Part shown: piece by piece, positions 3,544 to 8,486 of the stretch
How the letters are laid out: the number at the start of each line of letters is the position of its first letter
Position numbering within the stretch: position 1 is the first letter of the stretch
Virus record (IMG/VR): IMGVR_UViG_3300045970_000086
Coordinates: 1-30,766 of that record
Reading direction: 5' to 3' (one strand)
Origin: a virus
DNA length: 30,766 bases
Notes under the pieces: generated by a model
What the model was told of the DNA's origin: nothing
What the model saw: only the letters and a program-made list of their open reading frames with translations
Database searches by the model: none
Program-made: the position numbers and the translations under genes

Positions 3544-3899
3544 GCGACCGACGACCGTGGAGGCCGAGCAACGGCACGGACGGAGAGATGTTCACGGCCA
3601 ACCGCTGCGAGCGATGCATCAACGACCGCTTCGACGACGAAGCCGGAACGGGCGACTCCTGCCCGATCTGGATGACGCTGATGATCGGTGACCACGACCC
3701 GCACGTCTACTGGGATGAGAAGAACAAGCACGGCGAGTGCGACATGTTCCACCCGCTCACGGACGTGCTCGCCAAGGAGATCGCAGTAATCGAGGACATG
3801 CAGGCGTACCTGACCGTCCTGAACAGCAATGGACCCCTGGCGCTGCTGCGCCGAGATCAGGTCATCGACCAGATCTCGAGGAGGTGGACGGATGAGTGA
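3540..3899 (+). CDS. hypothetical Cys/His-containing protein (119 aa)
   Basis: A 119-residue protein starting by ATGA overlap at 3540. The N-terminal half has NRCERCINDRF, then DSCPIW and later GECDMFHP, giving a C-x2-C...C...C arrangement with nearby His residues that could bind zinc. A loop HDPHVYWDEKNKHGE lies between. The C-terminal third is a long helix (VLAKEIAVIEDMQAYLTVL). It overlaps the helicase gene start by eight bases, and the primase-helicase ribosome binding site (AGGAGG) lies inside its last codons, so the two should be expressed together. Proteins of this pattern are frequent in actinophages next to primase genes, but their role is unknown to me. Confidence 0.65.
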   Translation: MSDRRPWRPSNGTDGEMFTANRCERCINDRFDDEAGTGDSCPIWMTLMIGDHDPHVYWDEKNKHGECDMFHPLTDVLAKEIAVIEDMQAYLTVLNSNGPLALLRRDQVIDQISRRWTDE

Positions 3900-6330
3900 T
3901 CACACGCAGCTCCTCGACGCCGCGATCCGCTGGCACACTGCTGGCGTCGTCGCCGTCCCCGTCCGCAGCGACGGATCCAAAGCCCCCGGCCTGCGCGAAT
4001 GGAAGACCTACCAAGCCACACCGCCCAGCATCGACCAGCTCCTCGCCTGGTTCGGCGGCTGCGCCACCGACGGAGTAGGAGTCCTCACCGGCACCGTCAG
4101 CGGAAACCTCGAGATGCTCGAGTTCGAGGGCCGCGCCGTCGACGCCGGGCTCCTCGCCCAGCTCGACACATACGCCGACGACAACGGCATGGCGCCGCTC
4201 ATCGAGCAGCTCCTCGCCGGGTACTGCGAACGCACCCCCTCAGGCGGCATCCACCTCCTCTACCGCGTCACCGGCGGCACCGTTGAACGGAACACCAAAC
4301 TCGCACGCACCGCCGACCGCATCGTCCTCGCCGAGACACGCGGGGAGGGAGGCTTCGTCGTCACCGCCCCCTCCTTCGGCCGCTCCCACCCCACCGGGCA
4401 GCCCTGGGCCATGATCTCCGGCAGCATCGAGCAGATCCCCGCCATCACCGCCGACCAGCGCGACCAGCTGTGGGCCCTGGTGTCACTCCTCGACGAATCA
4501 CCCGTCACCACGCCCATGGTCGAGCCGATGCCCGGGGTGTTCGGATCCACCCCCGGCACCCGACCCGGCGACGACTACGCGAACAAGACCAGCTGGGACG
4601 ACATCCTGACCCCCCTCGGCTGGACCCGGAAGTTCCGCATGGGCAACGGGTACGCCTGGCAGCGCCCCGACAAGACCGGCCCCGGAATCTCCGCCACCAC
4701 CGGGCAGGCCGCCGACGGCGTCGACCGCCTCTACGTGTTCTCCTCGAGCACCGAGTTCGAGCCCGAGCGCCCATACAACAAGTTCAGCGCCTACGCCCTC
4801 CTCGAGCATCACGGGGACTACGCGGCCGCCGCCACCCAGCTCGCGAAAGACGGCTACGGCACCCAGCCCACCCAGCCGATCACCGCACCGATCGCGCCAC
4901 GGCAAGGACCAGCAACGACGACGGCCCCAACGCAGCCCCGGCATCTCACCGTCGTCGACGGCACCAGCGCCCTCGCCCCCGACATCGACCCACTCCCCGT
5001 CACTCACACCCTTGCCCAGTCCGAGGACGGCCACTCCCAGGCCCTCATCGCCGAGCACGGCGCCGTCATCCGCTACTGCCCCGAACGCGGACGCTGGCTG
5101 TGCTGGAACGGGCGCGTCTGGCGATGGCAGGCACCCGGAGGCGGGCACGTCAAGGAGCTCGCCAAGGACATCGCCCGCGCCTACCCCAACAACAGCGACT
5201 GGAAGACCCACCGCAAGAGGTCCCTCTCCCACGGCGGCCTCAGCGCCTGCCTGGCCATCACCGAGACCGACCCTCGCATCGCCGTCAGCATCGACGACCT
5301 CGACGCCCACCCCTGGGAGCTCAACACCCCCGGCGGCATCATCGACCTGCGCACCGGCGAGCTCATGCCATCCGACCCCACCCGGCTGCACACCAAGTCC
5401 ACACTCGTCGCCCCCGACATGACCGCCGACCAGGGCGCATGGCTCGCGTTCCTCGACGACACCTTCAACGCCGATCGCGAGATGACGTCCTGGCTGCGCC
5501 GCCTGTTCGGCTACGCCTGCGTCGGCGAAGTGCGGGAGGCGATCCTGCCGCTGTTCTTCGGCCTCGGCGCTAACGGCAAGACCACCATCCTCGAGACCGT
5601 CTCGGGCGTCCTGGGCGACTACGCCAGCCAGGCTCCGCAGGGATTCCTCGTCCAGGGCCCACCCCAGCACCCTGCCGAGATAGCCGAGCTCGCCGGCGCA
5701 CGCCTGGTCATCGCATCCGAGACCAACGAGGACCAGAAGTTCGACGAGGCCAAGGTCAAGCAGCTCACCGGCGGCGACCGGCTGCGTGCCCGCTTCATGC
5801 GGCAGGACTGGTTCGGGTTCGCCCCCAGCCACACCCTCATCCTCATGACGAACCACCGCCCGGAAGTCCGATCCGGCGGCCACGGGTTCTGGAGACGCGT
5901 CCGCGAGGTCCCGTTCAACCACGAGGTCCCTTCCGAGAAGAAGATCGAGAAGTACCAGGACGTCCTCATCCGCGAGCACGGGCCGGCCATCATGGCGTGG
6001 CTGGCACGCGGCGCCGCCGAGTACGCGGCAAGCGGCCTGCGCGACCCCGAGGGCGTCCGCGTCGCCACCAGCGAATACCAGGCGTCGACTGACACCGTCG
6101 CCCGGTTCGTCGAGGACATGTGCATCGTCGGAGGCGGCGACCACGTCCGCTGCAACTCCTCCAAGGTGCGCGCCGTGTACGAGCAGTGGTGCACGCAGGA
6201 GGGCGAGACGGCCATCTCGGCGAAGGCCCTGACGATGCAGCTCGCAGCCAAGTACGGCATCGGAAAGGCGCGCGACAAGCGCCAGAGATTCCTGACCAAC
6301 GTGACACTCGTGGGAGGCGACGATGAATGA
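3892..6330 (+). CDS. primase-polymerase / SF3 helicase (P4-type replication protein)
   Basis: An 812-residue replication protein. The N-terminal prim-pol (AEP) domain spans about residues 1-215: the acidic motif reads LEMLEFEG with Glu77 and Glu79 where Asp-x-Asp is more usual, and TPSGGIH (115-121) is the family's sGGxH motif. A Pro/Thr-rich linker lies near 330-370. The D5-type N-terminal region follows, then an SF3 ATPase: Walker A GLGANGKT (557-564), Walker B VIASE (606-610), sensor LMTN ending Asn654, and an arginine-finger FWRR (666-669). It would prime and unwind DNA at the phage origin. The start at 3892 is preceded by AGGAGGTGG; an upstream in-frame extension is possible but lacks this. 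The stop codon region leads directly into the repeat-rich stretch. Confidence 0.93.
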   Translation: MSDHTQLLDAAIRWHTAGVVAVPVRSDGSKAPGLREWKTYQATPPSIDQLLAWFGGCATDGVGVLTGTVSGNLEMLEFEGRAVDAGLLAQLDTYADDNGMAPLIEQLLAGYCERTPSGGIHLLYRVTGGTVERNTKLARTADRIVLAETRGEGGFVVTAPSFGRSHPTGQPWAMISGSIEQIPAITADQRDQLWALVSLLDESPVTTPMVEPMPGVFGSTPGTRPGDDYANKTSWDDILTPLGWTRKFRMGNGYAWQRPDKTGPGISATTGQAADGVDRLYVFSSSTEFEPERPYNKFSAYALLEHHGDYAAAATQLAKDGYGTQPTQPITAPIAPRQGPATTTAPTQPRHLTVVDGTSALAPDIDPLPVTHTLAQSEDGHSQALIAEHGAVIRYCPERGRWLCWNGRVWRWQAPGGGHVKELAKDIARAYPNNSDWKTHRKRSLSHGGLSACLAITETDPRIAVSIDDLDAHPWELNTPGGIIDLRTGELMPSDPTRLHTKSTLVAPDMTADQGAWLAFLDDTFNADREMTSWLRRLFGYACVGEVREAILPLFFGLGANGKTTILETVSGVLGDYASQAPQGFLVQGPPQHPAEIAELAGARLVIASETNEDQKFDEAKVKQLTGGDRLRARFMRQDWFGFAPSHTLILMTNHRPEVRSGGHGFWRRVREVPFNHEVPSEKKIEKYQDVLIREHGPAIMAWLARGAAEYAASGLRDPEGVRVATSEYQASTDTVARFVEDMCIVGGGDHVRCNSSKVRAVYEQWCTQEGETAISAKALTMQLAAKYGIGKARDKRQRFLTNVTLVGGDDE

Positions 6331-6562
6331 CCAGGGCCGATCGGTGACACGAACGCGTCACTTGCGTCACCAACGTGCGATGACACGTTTCGAGAAGATC
6401 CGTGAGGCAAATGACACGTGTGACACGTTTTCTGACATCTCAAGAAATGCCCGGGTGACAGGTGACACGTTTGCTGTGGTTACCCCTCATGCGCGCGATC
6501 AAGGGTTAATGCTGAGAACGGGTCACATGCGTCATCCGTCACCACTCGGAGAAAACCGATGA
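6323..6562 (+). CDS. doubtful small ORF lying over the iteron region
   Basis: A 79-codon open frame that starts in ATGA-style overlap with the helicase stop and ends in ATGA overlap with the next gene, so its boundaries look like those of a real gene. Against this, only about half of its third codon positions are G or C, whereas neighbours are strongly GC3-biased, and much of the protein (NDTCDTF, GDTF, TRHLRHQ) merely restates the DNA repeats TGACACGTTT and GCGTCAC. I think the stretch is mainly a cis-acting DNA region, with translation through it possible but perhaps only for coupling. Low confidence as a protein gene. Confidence 0.2.
   Translation: MNDQGRSVTRTRHLRHQRAMTRFEKIREANDTCDTFSDISRNARVTGDTFAVVTPHARDQGLMLRTGHMRHPSPLGENR
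6331..6558 (+). other. candidate replication origin (repeat-rich, lower GC)
   Basis: This stretch immediately follows the primase-helicase gene, has visibly lower GC than everything around it, and carries directly repeated TGACACGT motifs plus opposite-oriented GTCAC motifs (GCGTCAC at 6355 and 6364; GGTCAC at 6521; CGTCACC near 6537). AT-richer segments lie near 6385-6450 and 6505-6520. Iteron clusters beside an initiator/helicase gene are typical of origins in P4-type replication modules. The role as origin is inference; the repeats and composition are seen directly. Confidence 0.5.
6345..6472 (+). repeat. direct repeats TGACACGTTT (iteron-like)
   Basis: TGACACGTTT occurs exactly at 6381-6390, 6421-6430 and 6463-6472. 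Variants are TGACACGAA at 6345-6353 and TGACACGTGT at 6412-6421, the latter sharing its last T with the next copy. TGACAGG stands directly before the 6463 copy. Spacing between copies is 36, 31, 9 and 42 bases, so the array is irregular. All are on the + strand in the same orientation. Confidence 0.75.
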
Positions 6563-6753
6563 CCGACATCCCCATCGCCCGAATCCAGACCATCAGCTAC
6601 GGCGAGACCAGCCGCTTCGTCACCGTCGAATGCCCCCACTGCGACGAGCAGCACACCCACGGCTGGCCCTACGGCGACGCCAACGTCGGCCACCGACTCG
6701 CCCACTGCACCCCCGGCAATCCCGGCTACGAGATCTCCATCCACCGCCGATGA
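6559..6753 (+). CDS. small zinc-finger-like protein (64 aa)
   Basis: A 64-residue protein beginning at ATG 6559, preceded by CGGAGAAAA as a ribosome binding site. The middle reads VECPHCDEQHTHGWP and then HRLAHCTPG, a C-x2-C...H...H-x3-C arrangement suited to one zinc ion. The GC3-rich codon use returns here, in contrast with the repeat region just before. ATGA overlap couples it to the next gene. Small zinc-ribbon proteins of this type are numerous in this phage; the target (DNA, RNA or protein) is not deducible. Confidence 0.65.
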   Translation: MTDIPIARIQTISYGETSRFVTVECPHCDEQHTHGWPYGDANVGHRLAHCTPGNPGYEISIHRR

Positions 6754-7172
6754 CCACCACCACGACCATGCCCGAATGGCTGAAAACGATGCTCATCGAC
6801 CAGGGCCGACTCTCCGAAACCGGACTCACCCGGCGAGCCCGAATCCGAACCCACAAGCCCTGCCACCTGCCCACCCTCGCCGGATACGACGCCGACACGT
6901 GCGCACTCGACACCTGGTGCGACCTCGCCGAACTCACCCTCGCCGGCGAAGTCCACGCCCTCCTCGCCGGCCGCACCACGTACGAGCTCACCACCGAACG
7001 CCTCTACCGCCGCGACCGCTGGACCATCACCGGGCGCCCCGCTGGACGCATGACGCCCGTCTTCGCCGAGCATCGCTGCCACGCACCGATCCCTGCCACC
7101 TGGGCCGTCCCACCCCTGCCCGCCCAACCCGCACCACCCGCGACACCCAGCAGCCAGGAGGCCCCATTTTGA
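6750..7172 (+). CDS. hypothetical protein with His/Cys motifs (140 aa)
   Basis: A 140-residue protein, start fixed by the ATGA overlap at 6750 (an alternative ATG lies seven codons further in, before PEWLKTML). Arg-rich helical beginning, then THKPCHLPTLAGYDADTC, a helical core with LAGRTTYELTTERLYRRDR, then AEHRCHAP and a Pro/Ala-rich end. The two Cys/His clusters could form a shared metal site. I have seen the LLAGR-T-YEL pattern in small accessory proteins of actinophages and actinobacterial mobile elements, but no function is established to my knowledge. Its last codons contain the AGGAGG that serves the following TTG-start gene. Confidence 0.65.
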   Translation: MTTTTTMPEWLKTMLIDQGRLSETGLTRRARIRTHKPCHLPTLAGYDADTCALDTWCDLAELTLAGEVHALLAGRTTYELTTERLYRRDRWTITGRPAGRMTPVFAEHRCHAPIPATWAVPPLPAQPAPPATPSSQEAPF

Positions 7173-7834
7173 GCGCCGACCACGCCCTCTGCGAAGCACC
7201 CCACGACAGCCCCCGCAACGCAGCCACCGGACTGCGCGTCTGCACCGGACACGCCAACGCCGCCGGCAACGCCCTCGCCTCACTCCCGACCATCCACGCC
7301 AACCTCGCCCTGTACCTCAACGCCGGCGGCAACGGCACCGGATCCGGACCCACCGTCACCACCAGCCGAGACCCCGGACTCCGACTCGACAACGCCGTCG
7401 CATCAGCGCGCGCCGACATCCAGCAATGCCTCATCGGCTGGGCCGACTACGCCACCACCCGGCGCAACGACCACGGCCCCGCACGCCGAGACCTCACCAC
7501 CATCGCCCGATGGATCGCCCAACGCATCACCTGGTACCTCAACGACGCGAAAGCCGCCGACTTCGCCACCGACCTCACCGACACCGCACGCCGCGCACGC
7601 AGCCAACGCCAGCACAACCACGCCGCCACCTTCACCATCGGACCCTGCCCCGAACCCGACTGCACGGGAACCCTCATCACCCGCCTGAGACCAGCCGACT
7701 CACTCCTGCCCAGCGTCATATGGTGCGACAACTCACCCCTCGACCAGGAGACCGGCGAACAAATCCACACCTGGCCAGCCGGCGAAGGCTGGCACACCCT
7801 CGGACGCAAGATCTACAAACGAGCCATCCAATGA
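7169..7834 (+). CDS. hypothetical protein with zinc-ribbon segment (221 aa)
   Basis: A 221-residue protein with a TTG start at 7169 overlapping the previous stop; AGGAGG lies about eight bases upstream, which decides this start. The first two thirds are helical (RLDNAVASARADIQQCLIGW, WIAQRITWYLNDAKAADF), and residues about 155-190 hold CPEPDCTGTLITRLR then VIWCDN, resembling a half zinc ribbon (C-x4-C...C). The end, WPAGEGWHTLGRKIY, resembles the C-terminus of small helix-turn-helix-linked actinophage proteins. It precedes a likely HTH protein, so the pair may act on DNA together; that is inference from order alone. Confidence 0.65.
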   Translation: MSADHALCEAPHDSPRNAATGLRVCTGHANAAGNALASLPTIHANLALYLNAGGNGTGSGPTVTTSRDPGLRLDNAVASARADIQQCLIGWADYATTRRNDHGPARRDLTTIARWIAQRITWYLNDAKAADFATDLTDTARRARSQRQHNHAATFTIGPCPEPDCTGTLITRLRPADSLLPSVIWCDNSPLDQETGEQIHTWPAGEGWHTLGRKIYKRAIQ

Positions 7835-8004
7835 CCGAACCCCGATGGATCACCATCGACGCCGTCATGACCCTCCTCAACGTCACCAACACCAACGCAC
7901 GCCAACTCGCCTGCCGCCGACAATGGCGCCGCATCACCCTCCGAGGACGCACCCACTACCTGTTCACCGACGTCCTCGACATGCCGCACCGCCGCAAAAG
8001 TTGA
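7831..8004 (+). CDS. small helix-turn-helix DNA-binding protein (MerR/excisionase-like)
   Basis: A 57-residue protein starting by ATGA overlap at 7831. WITIDAVMTLLNVTNTNARQ followed by LACRRQWRRITLRGRTHYL is the winged-helix layout of MerR/excisionase-type proteins: a helix (DAVMTLLNV), a turn with Asn/Thr, a recognition helix (NARQLACRRQ), then a basic wing (RGRTHYLF). It is the last gene of the early block. A nested palindrome begins at its stop codon, so autoregulation or control of the tRNA/late region is plausible. It could be a directionality factor if the element is temperate; no integrase is in view to support that. Confidence 0.6.
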   Translation: MTEPRWITIDAVMTLLNVTNTNARQLACRRQWRRITLRGRTHYLFTDVLDMPHRRKS

Positions 8005-8035
8005 CTCACGTGACACCCGTGTCACATCCTGTCAA
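8001..8035. promoter_or_regulatory. nested palindrome, candidate operator
   Basis: The perfect inverted repeat GTGACAC-CC-GTGTCAC (8010-8025) is nested inside a second inverted pair, TTGAC (8001-8005) and GTCAA (8031-8035). The GTGACAC half-site shares its TGACAC core with the iterons at 6345-6472. The position between the early block and the tRNA/HNH/terminase genes suits a regulatory site. No convincing -10 element could be matched to the TTGACT or TTGACA hexamers on either strand. Confidence 0.55.
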
Positions 8036-8074: not shown

Positions 8075-8150
8075 TGCGGGATGGCGCAGCCGGAAGCGCG
8101 CGTGACTCATGCTCACGAGGTCGCAGGTTCGAGTCCTGCTCCCGCCACCA
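8075..8150 (+). tRNA. tRNA with CAU anticodon (Met or Ile2), CCA encoded
   Basis: A full cloverleaf can be drawn by hand. Acceptor arm 8075-8081 pairs with 8140-8146 in six of seven positions, the 1:72 pair being U-C. D-stem GCGC/GCGC (8084-8087 with 8096-8099). Anticodon stem CGTGA/TCACG with loop CTCATGC, giving anticodon CAT at 8108-8110. Variable loop AGGTC; T-arm GCAGG/CCTGC with TTCGAGT loop; discriminator A and CCA at 8148-8150. CAU serves elongator Met, initiator Met or, after lysidine modification, Ile AUA. The anticodon stem lacks the three G:C pairs of an initiator, but the unpaired 1:72 is initiator-like, so the identity remains open. Confidence 0.88.
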
Positions 8151-8168
8151 ACCACGAGAGACCAGCCC

Positions 8169-8486
8169 ATGGGCCAGTATCCCTGGGGACGAGCCAAGCC
8201 CCCCGGATCCTGGGCGCAACGCCGACGAGTCCTCCAACGCGACCCCACCTGCCGATGCCCCGGCTGCCCACACTGCACCCCAACCGGATGTCACCAGCCC
8301 AGCACCGACGACGACCACATCGTCCCGCTCAGCCAAGGTGGCGACGTGAACACCGCCGACGACTCCAACCATCAGGGCCTGTGTCATCCCTGCCACGTCC
8401 GTAAGAGCCATCTCGAGGCCGTCGCTGGCCGACGCGCCGTCGCACCACAGCGCCCACCACGCCGCCACCCCGGCCTCACTGGCTGA
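8169..8486 (+). CDS. HNH endonuclease
   Basis: A 105-residue HNH nuclease. Key residues: Asp49-His50 (DDDHIVPLSQGG), Asn67 (DSNHQGLC) and His76 (CHPCHVRKS), forming the beta-beta-alpha metal finger; Cys28, Cys30, Cys33, Cys36 or Cys41 and the CHPC pair (72, 75) would hold structural zinc. HNH proteins placed directly before the terminase genes in HK97-type phages work with the terminase in cos cleavage and packaging, which is the likely role here. The ATG at 8169 follows GAGAG; the frame is open further upstream but that part runs across the tRNA and is not coding. Confidence 0.9.
   Translation: MGQYPWGRAKPPGSWAQRRRVLQRDPTCRCPGCPHCTPTGCHQPSTDDDHIVPLSQGGDVNTADDSNHQGLCHPCHVRKSHLEAVAGRRAVAPQRPPRRHPGLTG

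Follow-up and report, generated by a model that had tools for sequence, protein, structure and literature searches.

The 30.8-kb virus record IMGVR_UViG_3300045970_000086 of IMG/VR, whose full 30,766 nucleotides were analysed and are here called the window, carries a cluster of short repeats (iterons) directly after its primase-helicase gene. We judge, with a probability of about 0.8, that this cluster is the replication origin of the phage, where the product of the preceding primase-helicase gene is predicted to bind and replication would start. On our best reading of the comparative evidence, it would be an origin of the kind used by Staphylococcus aureus pathogenicity islands (SaPIs) and phage P4 that doubles as a translated bridge inside an operon. 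A sequence-only reading of the window had already named the cluster as the leading origin candidate, and comparison with relatives now supports it, as they keep the cluster in exactly the same place while both its repeat word and the peptide encoded across it change. That reading had proposed looking for repeats kept despite divergent protein, and the outcome is the opposite of a conserved 79-residue protein with synonymous changes and no repeats.

Results

At least 12 TGAC half-sites lie between the stop codon of the primase-helicase gene and the next genes. Three exact copies of one repeat and two variants had been noticed from the sequence alone, and they are there: TGACACGTTT is exact at 6381, 6421 and 6463, with no further exact copies elsewhere in the window, and TGACACGTGT is at 6412. 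The inverted GTCAC half-sites reported at both ends also stand where they were placed, within one base. Counted on both strands, RTGACR occurs 11 times in 6297-6545, where the remainder of the window would predict 0.97, and any other stretch of 249 base pairs (bp) in the window holds at most five (Poisson p 7e-9, or ~1e-6 once the number of windows is allowed for). Repeated 8-mers form 18 pairs at the cluster, against a shuffle mean of 3.4 and a count reached in 0 of 60 shuffles. Because GTGACAC also occurs singly elsewhere in the window, it is the clustering, not the word, that is unusual. Left of ~6470 most copies read GTGACA or ATGACA rightward and right of 6520 they read the opposite way, and these converging arms flank a core of ~50 bp, with two inverted copies (6355-6370) and one copy within the primase gene (6301) standing further out (Table 1). 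At the settings used, no inverted pair was reported in 6200-6700; iterons are present.

We compared about 115 related loci, 73 in a first set and 42 in a second set from a later scan. The 350 bp after each primase stop were set against three control stretches, with repeated 8-mers scored against dinucleotide shuffles and a cluster called at z >5; thresholds were set on the first set and the second was run with settings unchanged. The loci are related to one another, and thinning to 55% identity was applied in the frame test (below) only. A post-primase cluster was found in 51 of 73 loci of the first set (median z 14.5), where the control stretches gave 7/68 (upstream), 1/71 (+700 to +1050) and 0/74 (within the gene), and in 29 of 42 loci of the second set, compared with 1/42, 0/42 and 0/42 in the controls. 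Lacticaseibacillus phage R18.1, Honk and FuzzBuster were above the repeat threshold. The cluster is displaced by ~290 bp in RootBeer and Bridgette, and in locus L041 tract and iterons are displaced together by 2 kb (~7330-7700), to just before the usual downstream gene. An insert of ~290-400 bp separates the primase stop from the cluster in L003 (RootBeer), L011 and L038, and in RootBeer it is, by annotation, a reverse-strand gene. The more distant phage primases of Samora, Ascela, phiSASD1 and Javan369 had no clear cluster, nor was there a cluster 3' of the P4-family primase gene in the two streptomycete plasmids examined (L085, L086); in L086, a Kitasatospora plasmid, a strong repeat cluster lies upstream of the primase (2630-2985, z 24.6).

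The repeat word is specific to each phage (GTGACAC, GTGGCAC, ATGACCG, ATGACGC, AGTGTCGG, AGTACCCC and others). Within one phage most copies share the word and change together, and position and plan are kept among relatives. L007 (97% protein identity) has six base differences in 6331-6558, 0 of them in half-sites. In L006 (76%) the arrangement is the same and the words, GTGACACG and CGTGTCAC, are more perfect. L005 (69%) has CGTGTCA 11 times, while the words are ATGACAG in L017, GTGGCA in L016 and L019, GTGTGGC in L018, and TCTGTGCC and AGTGTCGGAT in the mycobacteriophages Amohnition and Aminay. Arthrobacter Bridgettevirus phages have two tandem units, in which (A)GTGACA pairs flank a TACGTGCGCGCACGCGTA core. 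Each of the relatives that were checked has the cluster at a single place; all 8 AGTGACA copies of the Constance genome, for example, fall within 222 bp.

Most relatives' cores contain a strictly alternating purine-pyrimidine run, often of 14-31 bp, such as CATACGCGCGCGCATA and TACGCGCGCGCACGCATGCACGTA, or ACACATACATATATGTGTG in an AT-richer phage; the cores of some relatives are imperfect palindromes. The core tract is the longest alternating run of its locus in 43 of 72 loci (3.3 expected) and in 29 of 42 (1.9 expected), and alternating runs of at least 14 occur in 54% of post-primase regions compared with 1% of control windows. Alternating purine-pyrimidine DNA is flexible and can form Z-DNA or cruciforms under negative supercoiling.

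The proposed initiator carries a Prim-Pol domain, a superfamily 3 (SF3) helicase and a winged helix on one chain. It matches PF09250 (Prim-Pol), PF08706 (D5_N, E 1e-29) and PF19263 (DUF5906) in Pfam, passes the NCBI model TIGR01613 'phage/plasmid primase, P4 family' with 274 bits (cut-off 109), and shares 50% identity with the primase/polymerase of Arthrobacter phage Constance. Its AlphaFold2 model has a mean predicted local distance difference test score (pLDDT) of 84, and the modelled C-terminal winged helix consists of helices 777-790 and 798-809 followed by strands at 812-827 (pLDDT ~80-90). Residues 384-832 align with the SaPI5 primase-helicase through the winged helix, to SaPI5 residue 765 (Z 29, root-mean-square deviation 5.2 Å, 399 residues), and the two proteins also match in sequence (E 1.5e-15). 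Other structural matches are vaccinia D5 and African swine fever virus C962R, and the Prim-Pol domain matches pRN1 ORF904 (Z 16).

Across 66 loci, we compared repeat-word distance with domain distance in partial Mantel tests corrected for the rest of the helicase (299 permutations, p floor 0.003). The values were 0.28 for residues 761-828 and 0.32 for 790-828, with p 0.003, the permutation floor; they were 0.27 for 775-804 and 0.01 for the Prim-Pol domain. Of all parts of the initiator, the C-terminal winged helix thus appears to be the one that the repeat word tracks best, which we count as support, not proof, for reasons weighed in the Discussion. The small helix-turn-helix protein that had been suggested as a binder is less likely than this winged helix.

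The same covariation bears on the possibility that the cluster is an operator or silencer, at which a phage repressor or the primase binds the repeats and controls transcription of the replication operon, with replication starting elsewhere. Initiators commonly autoregulate, and the same half-site forms a perfect inverted pair, GTGACACCCGTGTCAC, at window 8010-8025, 50 bp before the tRNA-Met gene, possibly as a second binding site, so the binder may act elsewhere too. However, the cluster is a mid-operon site with an open frame running through it, a promoter and terminator scan of 6200-6800 gave no promoter-like or terminator-like match, and neither the single place per phage nor the tie between word and winged helix favours an operator, which we therefore consider unlikely.

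The frame through the cluster is usually coupled by start/stop codon overlap to the genes on both sides. The sequence-only reading took it for a pseudo-ORF (open reading frame) with ATGA ends; the ATGA-bounded frame stands and is of more interest than a pseudo-ORF, being kept open across diverged relatives. A forward frame stays open all the way from +6 to +200 in 41 of 46 loci, where 21.6 would be expected; the reverse strand shows no such excess. In the second set the count is 37 of 42 (24.0 expected, p 3e-6). With one locus per group at <55% primase identity the figures are 17 of 18 against 8.1 expected (p 4e-7), and 3 against 6.3 for the reverse strand; at <90% identity the forward frame is open in 67 of 74. 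A chance ORF, as an explanation of the 79-codon frame, was dropped after this open-frame test. In almost every locus the frame begins at the primase stop or slightly ahead of it. Of the 38 frames that do not read through, 25 terminate in an ATGA from which the next frame (at least 60 codons) begins, compared with 4.8% of stops in other frames; eight frames continue in frame past the usual next-gene start, and four loci have no such frame. The second set has 17 of 40 frames ending in ATGA and 27 of 40 in any start-stop overlap.

Such persistence and such neat overlap with the neighbours could also be expected if the 79-codon frame and its counterparts were genes of the ordinary sort, whose small basic products evolve fast, and the repeats a by-product of coding. 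The tendency of the tract to read Arg-Ala-Arg/Thr fits this, as do mostly synonymous changes between the window and L007 and public annotations of a 'hypothetical protein', which cover the cluster in the Bridgettevirus loci L002 (6975-7316), L010 (5496-5837), L011 (5481-6074) and L012 (5475-5816). Against a gene, nonsynonymous/synonymous ratios are mostly 0.5-1.2 (codon test excluding the pair L002/L026, misaligned at 39% identity), Constance and Karkharias differ at 9 synonymous and 27 nonsynonymous codons, and between L009 and L010 the frame is shifted over short stretches by indels of 1 and 2 bases that compensate each other. Third-position GC is 0.52 in the 79-codon frame, bearing out the composition change first noticed from the sequence, compared with 0.82-0.92 in the primase, exonuclease, TerL and the next two frames. 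The peptide has no family match and alters as the repeat word alters, and the repeats occupy both strands around a core. We rate an ordinary gene slightly below even the operator. The simplest account of these comparisons would be selection for openness of the frame, with the peptide under little or no constraint; openness presumably keeps ribosomes moving through the middle of the operon.

Inverted arms around a core are also a feature of att and parS-like sites, but a recombination, packaging or partition site adjoining the primase by chance is very improbable for a site that is fixed to the primase 3' end in more than 80 loci with different genome layouts and whose word covaries with the primase.

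The window phage is actinobacterial, and its record holds tailed-phage genes for a Cas4-like exonuclease, the primase-helicase, an HNH endonuclease, TerL and portal. The tRNA-Met (CAT) gene at 8075-8150 sits between the replication and packaging modules. The HNH ORF as listed (8109-8486) starts within it and probably has its true start further on. GC skew is strongly negative (~-0.35) at 6800-8000, from just past the cluster; this is local and is no origin mark in the whole-window profile.

Table 1. Features of the putative origin and adjoining genes in window coordinates
Feature	Position	Strand	Basis
Primase-helicase, proposed initiator: Prim-Pol (39-201), D5_N/SF3 helicase (~404-760), C-terminal winged helix (~774-828)	3829..6330	+	Pfam, TIGR01613, AlphaFold2
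Half-site GTGACAC in last primase codons	6301..6307	+	Sequence; own repeat word here in several relatives
Bridging open frame, 79 codons, starts in last primase codons, ends in ATGA on next start; peptide not conserved	6323..6562	+	Sequence, relatives
Left-arm half-site GTGACAC	6344..6350	+	Sequence
Two inverted half-sites GCGTCAC (6355-6361, 6364-6370)	6355..6370	-	Sequence
Left-arm iteron ATGACACGTTT	6380..6390	+	Sequence
Left-arm iteron pair ATGACACGT/GTGACACGTTT, spacing 9 bp	6411..6430	+	Sequence
Left-arm iteron pair GTGACAG/GTGACACGTTT beside core, spacing 7 bp	6455..6472	+	Sequence
Core between converging arms, with short alternating tract CATGCGCGCG (~6488-6497)	6469..6521		Sequence
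Right-arm inverted half-sites GTCAC, GCGTCAT, CGTCAC, spacing 8 bp; GTCAC at 6522-6526 and 6538-6542; further half-site at 6530	6522..6542	-	Sequence
Short frame, 64 amino acids, ATGA at both ends; none in L005, L006	6559..6753	+	Sequence, relatives
Conserved downstream gene, phrog_16156, function not assigned	6750..7172	+	After cluster in relatives compared

Discussion

In the mechanism that we propose, the Prim-Pol/SF3 protein would read the TGAC half-sites with its C-terminal winged helix. Because the left copies point right and the right copies left, two oligomers could load face to face around the core. The core has many alternating pyrimidine-purine steps (CG, CA, TA), which are flexible, and would be distorted or melted between the oligomers. 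The SF3 motors would then unwind outward, and the Prim-Pol domain would make the first primers. Ribosomes would meanwhile traverse the origin, which would preserve translational coupling of the genes downstream and protect the transcript from being truncated, and iteron evolution would be limited by the reading frame. We put at roughly even odds the broader proposal that this phage family places its origins in a frame selected only for openness, not for its peptide, which is translated through and coupled to both neighbours by start/stop overlaps, and in which the iterons, swapped as a set with the winged helix, may add no stop.

Several observations weigh against an origin of this design. The alternating tract of the window core is only 10 bp and is not the longest in the window. 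GC skew, which had been suggested as a check, was no help in locating the origin, with no clear turn at the cluster in the window or in Constance. The partial Mantel correlations are of modest size and D5_N itself reaches 0.17, and because of this the association of word and winged helix is support, not proof; an iteron copy also encodes residues 824-827 of the window primase, so the very end of the protein is confounded, with 775-804 free of overlap. As for the frame, the window and L007 differ by 4 synonymous and 2 nonsynonymous changes (ratio 0.14 on 6 changes) and two Bridgettevirus pairs have ratios of ~0.46, so weak constraint on the peptide is possible in some lineages. Finally, 22 of 73 and 13 of 42 loci fall below the repeat threshold, some of them with a weak repeat or an insert-displaced cluster, and no repeat cluster was found in L059, L065, L111, L113, L114, L118, L119 and L124. 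The last six have neither iterons nor tract after the primase, and all have a frame ending at ~+341 to +347 that is perhaps a real gene; their origin may thus lie elsewhere.

The cluster gives a precise, testable origin candidate for a large group of actinobacterial phages, in a region now annotated as hypothetical protein or left blank, and the dozens of natural iteron-initiator pairs are a ready set for learning how D5-type winged helices read DNA. The maintained, apparently peptide-free frame suggests that phage operons shield an internal origin by translating through it and, if true, such a translated origin would link the start of replication with transcription and translation. It also carries a warning for annotation, in that a small ORF may be open in all relatives and overlap its neighbours neatly without encoding a functional protein.

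We found no earlier report of this type of locus in actinophages in the open-access literature (our coverage was of open-access rather than subscription papers), and likewise no description, in the searchable part of that literature, of a word replaced across the whole family, of the alternating core or of a frame kept open, with earlier notice elsewhere possible. The closest precedents are the SaPI and staphylococcal cassette chromosome mec (SCCmec) origins of Staphylococcus islands, where the D5-type initiators, SaPI Rep and SCCmec Cch2, are self-loading SF3/D5-type helicases whose C-terminal domains bind iterons directly downstream of their own genes (PMC7581432). The window protein matches that of SaPI5 in both sequence and fold, winged helix included. 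Unlike these islands, loci of the window type are found in tailed phages of high-GC bacteria, and their initiator chain includes a Prim-Pol domain. They also differ in that many relatives have an alternating core that is GC-rich, the words vary from phage to phage within one family, and an open frame runs through the origin. The alpha protein of phage P4 is similarly primase, helicase and winged-helix binder of origin repeats in one, although its primase is of the TOPRIM type (as summarised in PMC4234260); the comparison here is one of the proteins. The pRN1 replicon of Sulfolobus requires an element directly 3' of the gene for ORF904, which like the window protein has Prim-Pol, SF3 helicase and C-terminal winged helix; sequence-specific binding of ORF904 was not detected, and its authors proposed that some phages have a comparable element, a stem-loop and not iterons (PMC4234260). 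That element is a large stem-loop without iterons, whereas the window has iterons. With the SaPI/SCCmec and pRN1 precedents, the phage origin type proposed here would vary a known kind.
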